From an uncultured SAR86 cluster bacterium (GTDB lineage Bacteria > Pseudomonadota > Gammaproteobacteria > Magnimaribacterales > AG-339-G14): a stretch of DNA of 64,000 nt. Position numbers and translations under genes: made by a program. The notes beneath the pieces are model-generated. The model saw only the letters and a list, made by a program, of their open reading frames with translations, was not told the DNA's origin and searched no databases. Below are positions 5,016 to 30,773 of the stretch, piece after piece. Location: positions 1-64,000 of the forward strand of contig CABYXE010000001.1 in NCBI GenBank assembly GCA_902522825.1. Direction: 5' to 3'. Position 1 is the first letter of the stretch. Each line of letters starts with the position of its first letter.

Positions 5016-6428
5016 ATGAAAAAAATAATATTATTTATTCTTTGCTTAAATTTTACTTTAAGTGCATTTACACAAAATGGAAGAAATGGTCCAAGTTTAT
5101 GGGATGAAATAAGAATTAATAGCAAGCTAGAATACGATAATACTAAGCCTCAAATTATAGAATCATTAAAGAAATACGATTCTCATCAATATTTAATAAA
5201 TCGATTATCAAAAAATGGGCAAAGATATCTTTTTTATACTGTTTCTGAAGCCCTAAATCGAGAACTTCCTGTTGAATTAAGTTTAATTCCTTTTATCGAA
5301 AGTCAATTTGATCCTTATGCTCAATCGTCAACTGGAGCTTCGGGTATTTGGCAGTTTATTCCATCCACAGCCTTGGAAAATGGATTAAAAAAAAATTGGT
5401 GGTACGATGCAAGAAGAGATATTGTTGCTTCTACAGACGCAGCTTATAGATTTTTAGTTAAATTACATAGTGAGCATAATGATTGGCTGATAGCAATTGC
5501 TGCATATAATGCAGGTCCTTCAAGAGTTAGAAAAGAAATAAAAAAAAATAAAGCAAAAGGATTACCAACTGATTTTTGGTCTCTAAATTTACCAAAAGAA
5601 ACTAAGGCATATTTACCTAAAATCTTAGCTCTTACTGAGGTCATAAGAAATCCAGAAAAATTCAATATCGAACTTCCTTACCTTGCAAACAGACCTTATT
5701 TTAGAGTTGTGGAATTACCCTCACAAGTTGACTTAATGCAAATTGCCAATCTTTCTGGCTTAAAGCTTGAAGTTATTTATGAGCTTAATCCTGGCTTTAA
5801 CCAATGGGCAACTGACCCCAGTGGACCATTTAGAATCTTATTACCAGTTGGTATTGCAGATAGATTTCAAATAGTCTTGAAAGATATTGATCCATCAGAT
5901 TTGGTGCAGTGGGATAAATATTTAGTAAAGAAAGGAGACACGTTAACTTCAATTTCTGAATCATACATGATCGATTTCGAACTACTAAAAGAAATAAATG
6001 GATTAAATGATAATTTGATTTATGAAAACGAGGAATTATTTGTTCCTAGAGGCCCTAGTTGGATTAAGGATTATTTAAATAGGCCTGATATTTATTATGT
6101 AAAATCTGGAGATAGTCTTTGGTCTATATCTAAGAAATTTAATGTAACTATAAGAGATTTAACCATTTGGAACGGTCTCAATCCTTCTAATTTTCTTATT
6201 ACTGGGACAAAAATTTTAATCTATCCAAAATATTTAAAACCAAAAAAAATAGTAAAAGCTAATTTTAATGACATCTCATATCCAGTCAAAACTGGAGATA
6301 CTATTAGCAAAATAGCTTTAAAATTTGGAATAGATAAGGATTGGATTTTAAAATGGAATGAAATCGAAAATGCTGGATTAATTTATCCAGGAGATGTTCT
6401 CAATTTAAACCTTTCTGAGTTAAATTAA
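5016..6428 (+). CDS. mltD: Membrane-bound lytic murein transglycosylase D
   Basis: A 470-residue exported peptidoglycan-cleaving enzyme. A signal peptide covers about residues 1-20 and has no lipobox, so it may be periplasmic rather than an outer-membrane lipoprotein as in E. coli. The SLT domain runs from about 80 to 200, with catalytic Glu95 in 'IPFIESQF' followed by 'STGASGIWQF' and 'AYNAGPSRV'. Three LysM repeats follow at about 308-350, 362-405 and 423-467, each starting with V-K-x-G-D. It cleaves the MurNAc-GlcNAc bond to give 1,6-anhydro ends. Its last 29 bp overlap the convergent glucokinase gene. Confidence 0.95.
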   Translation: MKKIILFILCLNFTLSAFTQNGRNGPSLWDEIRINSKLEYDNTKPQIIESLKKYDSHQYLINRLSKNGQRYLFYTVSEALNRELPVELSLIPFIESQFDPYAQSSTGASGIWQFIPSTALENGLKKNWWYDARRDIVASTDAAYRFLVKLHSEHNDWLIAIAAYNAGPSRVRKEIKKNKAKGLPTDFWSLNLPKETKAYLPKILALTEVIRNPEKFNIELPYLANRPYFRVVELPSQVDLMQIANLSGLKLEVIYELNPGFNQWATDPSGPFRILLPVGIADRFQIVLKDIDPSDLVQWDKYLVKKGDTLTSISESYMIDFELLKEINGLNDNLIYENEELFVPRGPSWIKDYLNRPDIYYVKSGDSLWSISKKFNVTIRDLTIWNGLNPSNFLITGTKILIYPKYLKPKKIVKANFNDISYPVKTGDTISKIALKFGIDKDWILKWNEIENAGLIYPGDVLNLNLSELN

Positions 6429-23336: not shown

Positions 23337-24239
23337 TTATCTATCTAATGGCTTGTCTTTTGGAAACCAGCCTCTTATTAAAGAAACAAAAGGTAATAAA
23401 TAAATATATTTTTTTGGAAACAATCTTTGAATTCGATCGTACCATTTGGCATCAGCACCAACTAAGATTCTTTTATTCTTCTTTTTGATGTTATTCAAAA
23501 TATACTTTGCAGCTGTGTTTGCATTTACTGGTGCATTACTTTTAAAAAGCTGACCTACCTCTTCAATTGATTTGGCCTTTGGACCAAAAATATTAGGTCT
23601 TTTCTCCATTTCTTCAGCATTAAATTCCATCTTCCCTTTTTCAGCAGCTATATTAGCTATATTAGTTCCAATGTGGCCTGGATGAACTGAGTAAACTTCA
23701 ACGGGGGACTTTTCCATTTGCATCTCCAAAGCAAGGCTTTCTGTAAATGCTCTTACTCCGTACTTGCCAACATGATAAATAGATTGTGTTGGAACACTTA
23801 AAAGTCCAAAAATTGAAGAAGTATTTACAATTGCGGCTTCTGGTCTTTCTTTTAAATATGGCAAAAAAGCTCTAGTTCCATTTATAACTCCATGCAGTAA
23901 GATTCCTAAACCCCAATCCCAATCTTCATCAGTAGAGTCTTCAATAGTAGAAGCTAAAGCCACTCCAGCATTATTAAACACCATATCTACTGATCCATGC
24001 TCTTCAATTACTTGGTCAGGAAGAGCGTAAATTGCATCTTTATCACTTACATCAACAATGTGTTTTGATACACCAACATTATAGGATTTTAATAATTCTG
24101 CTGTCTCATTAAGAGTTGTTTCATTCCATTCTACCAAAGCTATATTTGCTCCTTCTTGAGCAAGCTCAATAGCAAGTTCTCTTCCCATTCCTGAGCCAGA
24201 GCCGGTAATAACAGCAACTTTATCTCGAAAATTTTTCAT
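23337..24239 (-). CDS. Short-chain dehydrogenase/reductase
   Basis: A 300-residue classical SDR. The NAD(P) loop is 'TGSGSGMGRELA', 'NNAGV' stabilises the sheet, and the catalytic set is Asn, Ser of 'VNTSSIFG' and 'YHVGKYG' (YxxxK). The C-terminal extension with 'NIKKKNKRILVGADAKWYDRIQRLFP' and hydrophobic 'YIYLLPFVSLIRGWFP' could associate with the membrane. Glu39 after the second strand ('ALVEWNE') suggests NAD rather than NADP. Substrate unknown; similar proteins are usually annotated only as SDR. It is 34 bp after the Maf gene on the same strand. Confidence 0.92.
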   Translation of the reverse strand: MKNFRDKVAVITGSGSGMGRELAIELAQEGANIALVEWNETTLNETAELLKSYNVGVSKHIVDVSDKDAIYALPDQVIEEHGSVDMVFNNAGVALASTIEDSTDEDWDWGLGILLHGVINGTRAFLPYLKERPEAAIVNTSSIFGLLSVPTQSIYHVGKYGVRAFTESLALEMQMEKSPVEVYSVHPGHIGTNIANIAAEKGKMEFNAEEMEKRPNIFGPKAKSIEEVGQLFKSNAPVNANTAAKYILNNIKKKNKRILVGADAKWYDRIQRLFPKKYIYLLPFVSLIRGWFPKDKPLDR

Positions 24240-24273
24240 AATCTATTAACAGTACTTACTTTTATAAAAAATC

Positions 24274-24870
24274 TCAAATAAAATCATTTTGTTTTAAAAA
24301 AGAAAATAGTGAATCAATATCTAATCCTTGGATAGTATAAATTGAACCTTTTATATCAGAAAACAAATTTTTTCCATTTAATTCGTACTTATAGCCGCCG
24401 CAACATTCAAAAGGCTGATCTAATTTAATATAGTTATCGATGTTATCGTCTGTTAAAACTTTCATTGTCAATTTAGCCACATCGTAAGAAGTCCAAATGA
24501 TCTCTTCATTATAAGAAACTGCCATACCGCAGTTTTGATAATGAGTATTTCCTGAAAGCATTTTTAAGGTTTTTTTACAATTATTTATGTTTCCGGGCTT
24601 GCTTAGAACTTTTTCTTCGAACTCGCATACTTGATCTACTCCCAGCACGTAAGTATTTTTAAATTTTTTTGAAACATTAAGTGATTTTTCCGAAGCCAAT
24701 TTTATAGCTAGGTCATAAAAATTATCGAAATAATAATTTTTTTTTATTTTTTCTTCATCAACATTTGAAGAAACATAAGTAAAATGTAAGTTTGAGTTAT
24801 GTAAAATTTTTTTTCTTATCTCTGACTTTGTAGCTACTATTAATGGTTTCAGTAAAGGTATTTTACTCAA
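24274..24870 (-). CDS. Maf-like nucleoside triphosphate pyrophosphatase
   Basis: A 198-residue Maf/Ham1-fold protein that hydrolyses (modified) nucleoside triphosphates to monophosphates. 'LIVATKSEIRKKIL' is the first motif (AS.S..R), 'SSNVDEEKI' the second, and 'VLGVDQVCEFEEKVLSKPG' the acidic metal site, normally GADQ. 'SDIKGSIYTIQGLDIDSLFSFL' replaces the common 'G..Y.IQG...G..GLPL' ending. Sequence drift suggests a YceF/YhdE subfamily member whose substrate cannot be told. It is two bp after folE. Confidence 0.88.
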   Translation of the reverse strand: MSKIPLLKPLIVATKSEIRKKILHNSNLHFTYVSSNVDEEKIKKNYYFDNFYDLAIKLASEKSLNVSKKFKNTYVLGVDQVCEFEEKVLSKPGNINNCKKTLKMLSGNTHYQNCGMAVSYNEEIIWTSYDVAKLTMKVLTDDNIDNYIKLDQPFECCGGYKYELNGKNLFSDIKGSIYTIQGLDIDSLFSFLKQNDFI

Positions 24871-27792: not shown

Positions 27793-29232
27793 ATGCAATC
27801 TATAGATACAAGAATAATAGGTTTTTGGTTGGGAATTATTTCCTTTTTAATAATACTGTATCTGCCTAATCCTGAAGGCTTGTCATCTGAAGGAAGAATA
27901 ACAGCTGCTGTTTTTGTTCTGATGGGTTTGTGGTGGGCTTTTGAAGCTATTCCTCTTCAAATCACGGCCTTAATGCCTTTAATTTTATTTCCCTTACTAA
28001 ATGTCGAAGAGATTGGTGTTATCAGTAGAGAATATATGAACAAGGTTCAATTTCTTTTTGCTGGTGGGTTTATTATAGCTTTGGCTATTCAAAAATGGGG
28101 CCTTCATAAAAGAGTTGCTCTCAATATACTTAAATTTAGTGGATTAAATTCTAGAGGTATCGTCGCTTCATTTATGGTTGCAAGTGCCGTATTGAGTATG
28201 TGGGTTATGAACACATCAACTGCTATTATGCTTTTACCAGTTGGAATTTCTGTAATTAAAGTAATTAGTGATACTGTAAATAATGTAACTGAAAATCAGA
28301 AATTTAACTTCCAACTTTGTTTGTTATTAGGCATCGCTTATGCGGCGTCAGTAGGAGGTATAGCCACTCCAATTGGAACCTCGCCTAACGGTGTATTAAT
28401 TCAATTTGCTAGTAACAATTATGATTATGATATCGGTTTTGCAAACTGGCTTTCAATCGGATTACCAATAACGTTGGGACTAGGACCTTTAATCTGGGTT
28501 TTTCTTACATACTTTATTTTCCCAGTAAATTTTTCAGCAAATCAAGAATCAAAAAATAAATTGGACTCCATGCTTAGAGAACTTGGTCCAATGTCAAATG
28601 AAGAAAAAAAAGTAATTGTGGTGTTTTTAATTACAGCTTTTTTTTGGATTTTTAGACAGTTAATAGATGATTTACCCAGGTTATCTTTATTAGACGATTC
28701 TGTTATTGCAATAACAGGAGCAGTATCTCTTTTTTTTATAAATGAAAATAAAAGTAGAAATAAATTGCTTGTTTGGGATGATGTTCAAAAAGGCTTTCCT
28801 TGGGGTTTAATTTTTTTATTTGGTGGAGGAATGGCTTTAGCATTTGTCGTCAATGACTCAGGATTAGCTCTTTGGCTGGCATCGTTGATTCCTTCTGAAA
28901 CTTATTTCTGGATTATTTTGCTTACAGTTATAGCCATGGTTATTTTATTAACTGAATTAACAAGTAACTTAACCACTACAATAACTTTTCTGCCTGTCGT
29001 AGCTAGTGTAGGCTTAAATATGGGAATTGACCCGCTTCTGCTTATATTGCCGCTGACAATTTCTGCTAGTTGCGCTTTTATGTTGCCTGTAGCTACACCC
29101 CCAAATTCTATCGTTTATGCATCTAATTTAATTCCAATTCAAAAGATGGTGAAGGCAGGTATTTTTATAAATCTATCAAGTATTTTGTATGTTTTTATAA
29201 TATCTTATTTTCTTATTCCAAATCTTATTTAG
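27793..29232 (+). CDS. SLC13/DASS family sodium-coupled anion transporter
   Basis: A 479-residue inner-membrane carrier with about 11-12 hydrophobic segments. The two substrate/Na+-binding SNT-type motifs are 'WVMNTSTAIMLLP' and 'ELTSNLTTTITFLP', and 'SASCAFMLPVATPPNSIVYAS' is the family signature in the second half; 'ASVGGIATPIGTSPNGVL' is the matching loop of the first half. DASS carriers import di- or tricarboxylates or sulfate; the substrate cannot be told from sequence alone. It is a single gene followed by the candidate RNA, not by its own visible terminator. Confidence 0.94.
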   Translation: MQSIDTRIIGFWLGIISFLIILYLPNPEGLSSEGRITAAVFVLMGLWWAFEAIPLQITALMPLILFPLLNVEEIGVISREYMNKVQFLFAGGFIIALAIQKWGLHKRVALNILKFSGLNSRGIVASFMVASAVLSMWVMNTSTAIMLLPVGISVIKVISDTVNNVTENQKFNFQLCLLLGIAYAASVGGIATPIGTSPNGVLIQFASNNYDYDIGFANWLSIGLPITLGLGPLIWVFLTYFIFPVNFSANQESKNKLDSMLRELGPMSNEEKKVIVVFLITAFFWIFRQLIDDLPRLSLLDDSVIAITGAVSLFFINENKSRNKLLVWDDVQKGFPWGLIFLFGGGMALAFVVNDSGLALWLASLIPSETYFWIILLTVIAMVILLTELTSNLTTTITFLPVVASVGLNMGIDPLLLILPLTISASCAFMLPVATPPNSIVYASNLIPIQKMVKAGIFINLSSILYVFIISYFLIPNLI

Positions 29233-29236
29233 AAGA

Positions 29237-29265
29237 TTGTCACTTTTACAAAGTAAGAGTAATAT
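29237..29265 (+). promoter_or_regulatory. Candidate sigma70 promoter of the 29.3-kb RNA
   Basis: TTGTCA (29237-29242) and TAATAT (29260-29265) are separated by exactly 17 nt, just after the SLC13 stop codon. Box matches are five and four of six. Transcription would start near 29272. Confidence 0.5.
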
Positions 29266-29271
29266 TAATCT

Positions 29272-29501
29272 GTTGTCGCTATTTTAGAATTTAATATCAG
29301 GGTCTCTAAAAGTAGCATTTTTTTAATTTTCCCTGTGCAGGAGGTGATCAAAATTAGTATTAACAATTTATCAGGAATTTCAGGGGTTACCATCTGACAA
29401 GGGTTTACCCTTATTCCGACTAATAACCGTTTCGACCGTTATTAGAAAAATATAGCTGAGATGCTTATTTTTGAAAGGCCCCGCTTAGGCGGGGTTTTTT
29501 T
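29272..29501 (+). ncRNA. Candidate structured noncoding RNA, unknown class
   Basis: The 267-bp space between SLC13 and the convergent SDR is the only gap among twelve tail-to-tail junctions in the window. It has a promoter-like pair ending at 29265, an intrinsic terminator at 29479-29501 and stable elements between. GCTATTTTAGA (29278-29288) pairs with TCTAAAA-G-TAGC (29305-29316); its loop contains CAGGG (29298-29302), able to pair with CCCTG (29331-29335) as an H-type pseudoknot. AGGAGGTGATC (29339-29349) is the exact complement of the conserved 16S rRNA 3' tail. Further hairpins: TCAG/CTGA around 29380-29397, AAGGG-TTTA-CCCTT at 29399-29412, and CTAATAAC...GTTATTAG at 29420-29445 closed by TTCG. 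It does not resemble 6S, tmRNA, SRP or RNase P RNA. The class and function are unknown. Confidence 0.6.
29479..29501 (+). terminator. Rho-independent terminator of the candidate RNA
   Basis: CCCCGC (29479-29484) pairs with GCGGGG (29489-29494) around a TTAG loop, followed by seven T. It is the strongest intrinsic terminator in the window. The upstream side has only three A, so it works on the plus strand only. Confidence 0.92.
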
Positions 29502-30303
29502 ATTCAGTTATCAAAGCATGTCCGGACGCACAGACAGCTCCGCCGTCACATGTAATAGTTTCTCCAACTGTGTAACATCCTGCTCTAGAAGAAAGATAAA
29601 GAGCTAAACCGCCAATATCTTCCGCGGTTCCAATTCTTCTCACAGGATTTGTTTTTTCAATATAGCTGTAATCATGCCCTACAGCTGATCCAAGCATATT
29701 ACTTGGAAATGCTCCTGGAGCAATTGCATTTACTAAAATATTTTCTTTTACAAGCCTTGAAGCTAAAACTCTTGTTAAGTGATGAACAGCAGCTTTAGAA
29801 GAACTATAAACATAGCTTTCATAAACTGGGGTTCCAATTCCATCAATAGACCCGATATTAATCACTCTCGATGGATTGTCATGTGATCCGGAAGCTCTTA
29901 AAAGAGGTAAGCATTTTTGAGTCATATAAAAAAGGCCTTTGACATTAATATCCATAACCTTGTCCCACCCTTTTTCTGAAAATTCATCTATTGGTTCACC
30001 CCAAGAAGCTCCTGCATTATTTACAAGGATATCTAATTTGGATTCGTATGCAGTCAACTCTTCAACTAATTTTTCTATCCCTTCTAAAGTAGAACCATCA
30101 CCTGGAATAGAAATACATTCAGCTGAATATTTCTGCGACAACTCAATAGCTTTTGCGTCACATGCATCTGCTTTTCTTGCTGAAATATAAACTTTCGCTC
30201 CATTAGCTAAGTAAGCAGAAGCTATCATTTCTCCGATTCCTCTTGATCCCCCTGTTACAAATGCAACTTTACCTTTCACTGAAAAAATACTATTTAAATC
30301 CAT
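29500..30303 (-). CDS. SDR family oxidoreductase (RhlG/FabG-like)
   Basis: A 267-residue classical SDR: 'VTGGSRGIGEMIA' nucleotide loop, 'ARKADACDAKA' with basic residues after strand two (NADPH preference expected), 'NNAGASWG', and catalytic Ser/Tyr/Lys in 'GSIDGIG...YVYSSSKAAVHHL'. 'NAIAPGAFPSNML' and the ending 'TITCDGGAV' are typical of the RhlG/3-oxoacyl reductase-like subgroup. The probable role is reduction of a 3-oxoacyl thioester or similar ketone; no specific pathway is shown. It is 18 bp after panD. Confidence 0.92.
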   Translation of the reverse strand: MDLNSIFSVKGKVAFVTGGSRGIGEMIASAYLANGAKVYISARKADACDAKAIELSQKYSAECISIPGDGSTLEGIEKLVEELTAYESKLDILVNNAGASWGEPIDEFSEKGWDKVMDINVKGLFYMTQKCLPLLRASGSHDNPSRVINIGSIDGIGTPVYESYVYSSSKAAVHHLTRVLASRLVKENILVNAIAPGAFPSNMLGSAVGHDYSYIEKTNPVRRIGTAEDIGGLALYLSSRAGCYTVGETITCDGGAVCASGHALITE

Positions 30304-30321: not shown

Positions 30322-30648
30322 TTAAATTGTTAAAACTTTAGGTTGGTAGTTATCACTATCCTCATCTTTAATTTGACCATAAGCCGCGATTATTACCAAA
30401 TCGCCAATGGTAGCTTTTAAAGCTGCTGCACCATTCATGGAAATAATTTTAGACCCTCTCTCCGCTTCGAAAGCATAAGTGATTAGTCTCTCACCATTAT
30501 TAAGGTTATAAATATGTATTTGTTCATTTACTCTAATGCCAGTTTGTTCAAGATAATCTAAATCTATCGCACATGAACCTTCATAATCAATTTCTGTATG
30601 GGTTACAGGAACTCTATGAATTTTTGCTTTTAAAACTGTTATCAACAT
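30322..30648 (-). CDS. panD: Aspartate 1-decarboxylase
   Basis: A 108-residue pyruvoyl enzyme forming beta-alanine for pantothenate and CoA. With the start at 30648, 'YEGSCAIDLDYLE' places Gly24-Ser25 exactly where the proenzyme cleaves itself to make the N-terminal pyruvoyl group; 'NGERLITYAFEAERGS' and 'NGAAA' are the active-site segments. The frame is open upstream through tRNA-Asp, but that part is not protein-like. No Shine-Dalgarno precedes the ATG. It lies 23 nt after the tRNA-Asp 3' end. Confidence 0.96.
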   Translation of the reverse strand: MLITVLKAKIHRVPVTHTEIDYEGSCAIDLDYLEQTGIRVNEQIHIYNLNNGERLITYAFEAERGSKIISMNGAAALKATIGDLVIIAAYGQIKDEDSDNYQPKVLTI

Positions 30649-30671
30649 AATAAAATTTACAATATTAATAA

Positions 30672-30750
30672 TGGCGGACCGGACGGGGCTCGAACCCGCG
30701 ACCTCCGCCGTGACAGGGCGGCGTTCTAACCAGAACTGAACTACCGGTCC
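30672..30750 (-). tRNA. tRNA-Asp(GTC)
   Basis: A minus-strand cloverleaf: acceptor GGACCGG/CCGGTCC, D arm GTTC...GAAC with an 11-nt loop, anticodon stem CCGCC/GGCGG with loop CTGTCAC (anticodon GTC), T arm GCGGG-TTCGAGC-CCCGT, discriminator G and encoded CCA. Confidence 0.97.
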
Positions 30751-30762
30751 ACAAAAAACCAA

Positions 30763-30773
30763 ATTATACATAG
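30763..30773 (-). promoter_or_regulatory. Candidate -10 region of tRNA-Asp
   Basis: The minus strand reads CTATGTATAAT with a perfect TATAAT 12 nt before the tRNA 5' end. The same 11-mer precedes tRNA-Val(TAC). No convincing -35 was found. Confidence 0.45.

Follow-up and report, generated by a model that had tools for sequence, protein, structure and literature searches.

What is encoded in the interval between the sodium:sulfate-symporter-type transporter gene that ends at 29232 (+ strand) and the short-chain dehydrogenase gene (− strand) whose 3′ end abuts a terminator (29479–29501)? The window, by which we mean the whole 64 kb stretch of DNA analysed, belongs to the SAR86 genome G000 (1.1 Mb in 30 contigs). 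An initial annotation had read this interval as a candidate autonomous structured RNA with a pseudoknot, a match to the tail of 16S rRNA and its own terminator, and re-reading of the sequence located all of its elements at the positions collected in Table 1. When 29272–29501 was folded the energy gave z = −2.9, and 1 of 200 shuffles folded equally well. The elements stand above chance because they are conserved in relatives and covary over 63 of them. Comparison supports the presence in the window of a stand-alone RNA of ~230 nt that would run from the promoter-like site to the terminator, and we consider it highly probable that this RNA is a stand-alone mini-mRNA with the anatomy described below.

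Table 1. Features of the putative mini-mRNA (window coordinates).
Feature	Position	Strand	Basis
Sigma-70-like promoter, TTGTCA-N17-TAATAT	29237..29265	+	9/12 consensus letters
P1 hairpin	29278..29316	+	sequence, pairing search, covariation
Pseudoknot 5′ strand CAGGG, in P1 loop	29298..29302	+	sequence, pairing search, covariation
Pseudoknot 3′ strand CCCTG	29331..29335	+	sequence, pairing search, covariation
Extended Shine-Dalgarno site AGGAGGTGATC, 16S 3′ tail complement	29339..29349	+	sequence, window scan, alignment
Mini-ORF ISINNLSGISGVTI, 14 codons beginning with ATT and closed by TGA, presumably with N-terminal fMet	29353..29397	+	
P3 5′ strand GGAAT, inside ORF	29374..29378	+	fold, alignment register
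P5 hairpin AAGGG-TTTA-CCCTT, just past stop codon	29399..29412	+	sequence reading, candidate
P3 3′ strand ATTCC	29413..29417	+	fold, alignment register
Hairpin CTAATAAC...GTTATTAG	29420..29445	+	sequence, fold, alignment
AT-rich hairpin AAAAATA...TATTTTT	29446..29473	+	sequence, fold
Intrinsic terminator CCCCGC-TTAG-GCGGGG then T7	29479..29501	+	sequence, fold, alignment

The upstream half of the RNA consists of P1 and the pseudoknot. In the window's own sequence the two together gave z = 2.1 and were matched by 1 of 40 shuffles, and single folding of the upstream regions of 33 representatives yielded z ≥ 2.0 over shuffles in 21; L157 scored below its shuffles, and the best knot of L032 and L037 was a different one. 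Across lineages the two pseudoknot strands vary in step (CAGGG/CCCTG, CGGGG/CCCCG, GAGGG/CCCTC, AAGGG/CCCTT, CAGAGA/TCTCTG). Covariation was measured in alignment A5, for which 63 distinct relatives were fitted to covariance model R2, SAR86 rows more than 97% alike having been collapsed before this alignment and A1 were built. For P1 and the pseudoknot, 83.0% of cells were paired (shuffle mean 58.8; slid controls ≤55.9), 261 cells were changed on both sides (shuffle mean 95.6; slid controls ≤87) and the covariation score was 0.606 (shuffle mean 0.201; slid controls ≤0.150), and none of the 500 shuffles reached any of these three values. Counted by pairs, 16 of 17 showed changes on both sides, but 27 of the 500 shuffles reached the same count. 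All 12 pairs of P1 contained cells changed on both sides among the 63 relatives, in an alignment that is fitted to P1, and so did 4 of the 5 pseudoknot pairs, though the pseudoknot is absent from the fitted model. A5 leans towards P1 and contains the window row out of register; in the plain MAFFT alignment A1, where the register of P1 shifts between lineages, RNAalifold returned 0 pairs. The stem and pseudoknot that had been proposed from a single sequence thus covary over 63 distinct relatives.

Downstream of the pseudoknot lies the 11-nt complement of the 16S 3′ tail, the tail being the generally conserved sequence rather than that of this genome. The match reported initially proved exact, and AGGAGGTGATC is the sole match in the 64 kb window at ≤1 mismatch. 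Its mere presence is unsurprising, because 46 of 100 shuffles held at least one match at ≤1 mismatch. In the alignment, the Shine-Dalgarno core is the best-conserved part of the RNA, and the 13-nt version AAGGAGGTGATCC was present in 23 of 195 loci, repeat entries of the same places being counted. The site is likely to serve as a docking site for 30S subunits.

The initial annotation had noticed that a 14-codon frame could start at the ATT at 29353 and had set it aside. The frame exists as described and is open in all 63 aligned relatives, with 14 codons in 61 of them, 13 in L162 and 15 in L160. The start codon is ATT in 55 rows, ATG in six and ATC in two, and the stop codon is TGA in 52, TAG in six and TAA in five. 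Of these rows, 48 were retrieved with a pattern made up of the Shine-Dalgarno site, ATTARTA and AGGA among its elements, L149 with a similar pattern, and 14 with covariance models trained mostly on pattern-found rows; the stop codon lay outside the pattern. Because the patterns contain ATT, its occurrence in the 49 pattern-found rows is not independent evidence. Among the 14 rows found by covariance models the start is ATT in six, ATG in six and ATC in two, and ATT is present in all 42 alignment rows of the loci found by blastn, where no start codon was demanded. The cores returned by the pattern search run for 14 codons from ATT to TGA or TAG in 57 of 57 distinct cases. In the six ATG rows (L153, L154, L170–L173) the ATG occupies the place of the ATT, 7 nt past GGAGG; spacing from GGAGG to the start is 5–9 nt overall and 7–9 nt in 61 of 63 rows.

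The remaining two frames contain stops in 47 and 62 of the 63 rows. Codon-level similarity over column shuffles among 31 representatives gave z = 7.0 for the true frame versus 1.6 and 3.1 for the others, a test inflated by shared ancestry, as the 3.1 of another frame indicates. The peptide itself is not rigidly conserved, since the ORF middle is locally shifted in L075 and L126 with its length unchanged and the third codon position is no freer than the others (mean entropy by position 1.08, 1.20 and 1.15 in 45 of 63 rows). The middle of the peptide drifts within SAR86. Peptides from outside SAR86 are alike (e.g. MSNECINGASGGTC, MSNRCIIGAPGGTC, ISTERTIGASGEGC, ISTILTQGASGEAC) and most carry a terminal Cys; the majority of SAR86 peptides contain no Cys at all. 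A GTG inside the Shine-Dalgarno site had also been pointed out as a potential start, rightly for the window, where it is in frame and would give 17 codons; as a general start it was rejected, since 24 of the 63 rows, the window's among them, have it in frame versus 63 of 63 with an open ATT/ATC/ATG frame. The conservation of the ATT frame in every relative makes a mini-mRNA the most likely reading of this RNA, rather than a non-coding one. What defines a small-protein mRNA, a conserved small ORF with a ribosome-binding site on a discrete RNA, is found here by comparison of genomes. The infC-type combination of an AUU, AUC or AUA start with a strong Shine-Dalgarno site is likewise found, ATT or ATC being present in 57 of 63 rows, 49 of the 63 having been retrieved by patterns that contain ATT.

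Two further resemblances were considered and rejected. The sequence CTATTAGTA resembles the reverse complement of a TACTAATAG loop near the 3′ end of 23S rRNA, and this reading was ruled out because relatives with ATG have, for example, CATGTCTAAT instead. The AGGGGGT...TGAC of some SAR86 rows resembles the prfB frameshift site; a programmed frameshift of that type was ruled out by the variable identity of the last sense codon and by the occurrence of TAG and TAA as alternative stops.

The promoter-like sequence of the initial annotation was found as proposed, and its −10 region is alike in most rows of the alignment of blastn loci. A simple scan listed five promoter-like sites in 601 bases versus 2.2 in shuffles, and 61 of 63 relatives have a TANNNT upstream, which says little where DNA is AT-rich and was scored without a control. 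On the 3′ side, the P3 stem that closes this domain is GGAAT/ATTCC in the window and GGAAC/GTTCC or GGAGCCT/GGGCTCC elsewhere; its register is preserved in many relatives, it beats its own shuffles in 5 of 63 single sequences only, and in the window row another pairing of this region outscored it. The stretch of the candidate P5 hairpin is paired otherwise in the minimum-free-energy fold. The hairpin at 29420–29445 is missing from two relatives of the Caldithrix phylum, where the terminator comes after P3. The terminator of the window consists of a stem at 29479–29494, seen in the fold, and T7 at 29495–29501, and went unlisted by the simple promoter and terminator scan. A terminator-like stem followed by a T run was found 3′ of the RNA in 60 of 63 relatives in a scan of our own without a shuffle control. 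Together with the covariation and the conservation across SAR86, these sites bear out the initial proposal of an autonomous structured RNA with a real pseudoknot and a terminator of its own.

The distribution of the RNA was examined by blastn of 29233–29501 against G000 and 60 other genomes of its order, 61 in total. The expected conservation in close relatives was found, with 90–94% identity over nearly the full length in four genomes of the genus and 86% in a fifth; elsewhere in the family identity was 73–77% across the matched part. At E ≤ 3.4e-22 the RNA was matched in six of the eight genomes that represent the genus, its own included, and in 25 of 29 other family members, and the six genomes of the family missed by blastn (G004, G007, G020, G023, G025, G028) have a completeness of 70–88%. 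A second SAR86 family was matched in 6 of 8 genomes (E < 1e-9), and a fourth by short core matches only (5 of 8 at E < 1e-3). In the third family blastn matched 0 of 8 genomes at E 1e-3; the RNA was found there by pattern (L046, in G041) and by model R1 (G038).

A core pattern run over 257 billion bases of collected sequence had 82 matching stretches, 80 of them under SAR86 or gammaproteobacterial titles, one in a Caldithrix record and one in a Chitinivibrionales record. These outsiders have in common the promoter-like sequence, the hairpin, the pseudoknot, the extended Shine-Dalgarno site, the ATT frame and the terminator. In the Caldithrix phylum the pattern search matched 3 of 40 genomes, of which one was judged a chance match (G065, L148) and L149 represents a second carrier. 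Among 369 gammaproteobacterial genomes model R1 had five matches, of which those in G153 and G400 lie outside SAR86, and it matched 7 of 167 genomes from the phylum of the Chitinivibrionales record, which we take to be Fibrobacterota. One of these seven, G485, holds two diverged copies of the RNA, L159 and L163, with the peptides ISSNKLIGTPGTGC and ISSSILKETSGEIC. Model R2 matched 3 of 24 genomes in the order of G400 and 3 of 13 in that of G153, both centres included; on 398 Pseudomonadota genomes it matched six, of which only G000 was accepted. The spread seen with covariance models is probably a lower bound, because in the samples of 369, 167 and 398 genomes the filters were strict and few candidates were scored in each genome, and because the SAR86 genome G039 went unmatched by R1. 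Beyond SAR86 the RNA was thus found in two gammaproteobacterial families and in Caldithrix and Chitinivibrionales relatives, hence in at least two other phyla, and its distribution there is patchy. One locus titled SAR86 NORP90 (L070) lies in a 3.6 Mb genome and carries an outsider-type RNA, GGAGCCTCC; the label may be wrong.

Several candidate loci were dropped: L043–L045, which were second-place blastn matches (L043 and L045 read as coding sequence); L155, a second match in G008 whose sole frame past GGAGG has 21 codons before either a stop or the limit of the sequence read; and L165–L169, from five of the six genomes matched by R2 in the sample of 398, because they contain no GGAGG-type site followed by a frame of 13–15 codons. 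A phage or plasmid origin was rejected, three patterns giving 0 matches to viral contigs. With the ATG-type locus L154 as the blastn query, phages gave no match, and plasmids gave three short weak ones confined to the 3′ end of the locus.

How such an mRNA might be used is suggested by its start codon. Initiation factor 3 (IF3) discriminates against AUU, and infC autoregulates by means of its AUU start; the infC AUU start and IF3 were reportedly the subject of work by Butler et al. in 1987 and by Brombach & Pon in 1987, both cited by PMC9845219. For S. aureus, it has been predicted that the AUU or AUA starts of cvfC1, ccpN and infC go with extended Shine-Dalgarno sites (PMC13009471). The full explanation towards which we lean, if only somewhat, is that the SAR86 RNA would be a mini-mRNA that docks 30S subunits and has an AUU/AUC start discriminated against by IF3. 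According to this model, 30S subunits would dock at the extended Shine-Dalgarno site next to the pseudoknot, and, since IF3 rejects AUU and AUC, translation would increase once the activity of the factor falls behind the supply of 30S subunits, as happens with infC. Either the translation event (ribosome parking, termination-linked stalling) or the short peptide would then report or buffer the IF3/30S state. Gating of the mini-ORF by IF3/30S, taken as a claim of its own, is plausible, and we lean slightly against it; a defined role in sensing or in ribosome parking is more doubtful. Similarly tentative, and on the improbable side, is the suggestion that these RNAs may form an undescribed class of mini-mRNAs across phyla that gauges initiation fidelity or free 30S, its output being the translation of 14 codons and not a downstream gene.

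The start codons of infC were compared by our own reading of 21 of 22 infC loci. In genomes of the Fibrobacterota and the Caldithrix phylum infC starts with ATT or ATC in 7 of 7 loci read, and in five gammaproteobacteria with the ATG-type mini-ORF it starts with ATC, G1040 having in addition an ATG two codons upstream. The start was ambiguous in G063. Within SAR86 it is ATG in G000, G008 and G012, ATA in G013, G037 and G040, and ambiguous in G041 and G042; the three ATA readings are at L179, L182 and L191, and the three ATG readings at L181, L184 and L189. Since infC reads ATG or ATA there, a shared infC start provides no link to IF3 in SAR86. In the six ATG rows the start of the mini-ORF would escape discrimination by the factor.

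The same conservation could be read as that of a non-coding decoy whose Shine-Dalgarno site titrates or parks 30S subunits, the ATT...stop frame being a by-product of constraints on the RNA. It would suit such a decoy that the Shine-Dalgarno core is the most conserved of all parts, that a GATC/GGTC change preserves G-U pairing to the 16S tail, and that the SAR86 peptide is loose with third codon positions no freer; however, the open frame in 63 of 63 relatives makes use of all three stops, both length variants (2 of 2) differ by one in-frame codon, ATG replaces ATT at the 7 nt spacing in six rows, and a structural U-R-R element should include UGG, which was counted 0 times in 63. We regard the decoy as unlikely. 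A functional free peptide (a signal, a modified peptide or a small regulator) encoded by a plain small mRNA, which we judge slightly less improbable, overlaps with the explanation through IF3 up to the last step. The covarying pseudoknot and the weak start codon favour regulated translation over this alternative, and no recurrent modification or export gene adjoins the RNA, save an EamA-like gene in two SAR86 families, the neighbours having been judged without a profile search; the likeness of many non-SAR86 peptides (such as MSNECINGASGGTC, MSNRCIIGAPGGTC and ISTERTIGASGEGC), most ending in Cys, argues for it, but Cys is lacking altogether in the majority of SAR86 peptides. These alternatives are not mutually exclusive, so the probabilities we attach to them need not sum to one.

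The neighbouring genes bear on the suggestion of the initial annotation that the RNA could be a leader or riboswitch whose partner gene was lost, a version of which would be a leader-peptide attenuator acting on the gene after it, this partner having disappeared from some lineages. Neighbours differ between lineages and among phyla, and simple ORF calls, which contain some spurious short ORFs, place the following gene on the other strand at 38 of 63 loci, the window included. The conserved downstream gene expected of a cis-leader or riboswitch was seen only in SAR86 families f3 and f4, where a gene that we take from its sequence type to be DMT/EamA-like lies co-oriented downstream of the terminator (L097, L084, L126, L075, L038, L042); one 30-residue fragment of it matched no Pfam family. 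Given the terminator-like site in 60 of 63 relatives and the varied neighbours, the leader lacks support as a general account, and the attenuator is very unlikely despite the gene in these two families. Even less probable, to the point of being largely contradicted, is a diverged copy of a housekeeping RNA such as 6S or tmRNA, or of a known Rfam class, which the size and stand-alone anatomy would have allowed. The initial annotation had claimed no class membership, and no Rfam family matched above its gathering score in window positions 28700–30000 or in eight related loci, for three of which the gathering cut-off was applied and for five a limit of E ≤ 0.5; the identification of the RNA with a known class through the low scores in the window, which lay mostly over the terminator end, was rejected. 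In L158 and L154 the region is overlapped by opposite-strand matches that score 24.8 and 21 bits and so fall far short of gathering. Neither RF00013 (6S) nor RF00023 (tmRNA) matched at the RNA locus. Matches to 6S were located elsewhere in all seven genomes tested, four above the cut-off, and tmRNA was located elsewhere above the cut-off in six of the seven, the exception being the incomplete G000.

Other observations were made in the course of these scans. In L161 a Phe-leader-like match at 1941–2079 (42.8 bits; gathering 55) lies ~300 nt downstream, outside the RNA. Contig C10 of G000 carries two 6S-like matches of 43.2 bits each, below the cut-off and placed mirror-wise on 30 kb, L051 at 5876–6047 (+) and L054 at 24185–24356 (−); with one of the two loci reversed they agree at 2896 of 3172 positions, as might result from an inverted duplication or from an artefact of assembly or amplification. 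In the window, a − strand aspartate decarboxylase gene is immediately preceded by tRNA-Asp (30672–30750), and the mechanical ORF (30322–30771) crosses the tRNA. Within the open full-text literature, to which subscription papers and preprints do not belong, such an RNA was described in no title or abstract opening among the matches listed. An earlier prediction of peptide-coding small RNAs was confined to ATG starts (PMC5521070).

Judged by these comparisons, the RNA is a new family that belongs among the small mRNAs and whose start codon is unusual. If this is true, SAR86, an abundant uncultured lineage of the ocean, possesses a new RNA family, and a stand-alone gene of ~14 codons has kept AUU or AUC across three phyla, providing a compact and testable system for the regulatory use of start-codon discrimination. 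A mini-ORF of this kind would escape annotation that seeks ATG, GTG or TTG starts or longer ORFs.

AUU start codons are very rare and infC is the textbook case. The RNA shares with infC an AUU/AUC start past a Shine-Dalgarno site and, presumably, discrimination by IF3; whereas infC encodes IF3 itself, the RNA would be a mini-gene in its own right, 14 codons long, preceded by a pseudoknot and equipped with its own terminator. A pseudoknot adjoining the ribosome-binding site is known from the rpsO leader, where it serves S15 entrapment, and the SAR86 RNA resembles it in this placement; however, the rpsO leader governs a full ribosomal-protein gene, and none follows the SAR86 RNA. The preQ1 and SAM-II riboswitches likewise place a small H-type pseudoknot near the Shine-Dalgarno site, as does this RNA, in which, by contrast, the alignment contains no evident ligand-type core, no consistent gene follows downstream and the Shine-Dalgarno site lies outside the knot. 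SgrS/SgrT is a dual-function small RNA, a short transcript with a small ORF. VcdRP is reported to carry a small ORF of 29 aa (PMC8672173). Both resemble the SAR86 RNA in having a small ORF on a short transcript; the latter differs in its shorter ORF, which mostly begins with AUU, and in the covarying pseudoknot beside its Shine-Dalgarno site. The S. aureus genes cvfC1 (AUU) and ccpN (AUA) resemble it in combining a non-canonical start with a predicted extended Shine-Dalgarno site, and differ in being Firmicutes protein genes, cvfC1 encoding 61 aa (PMC13009471).
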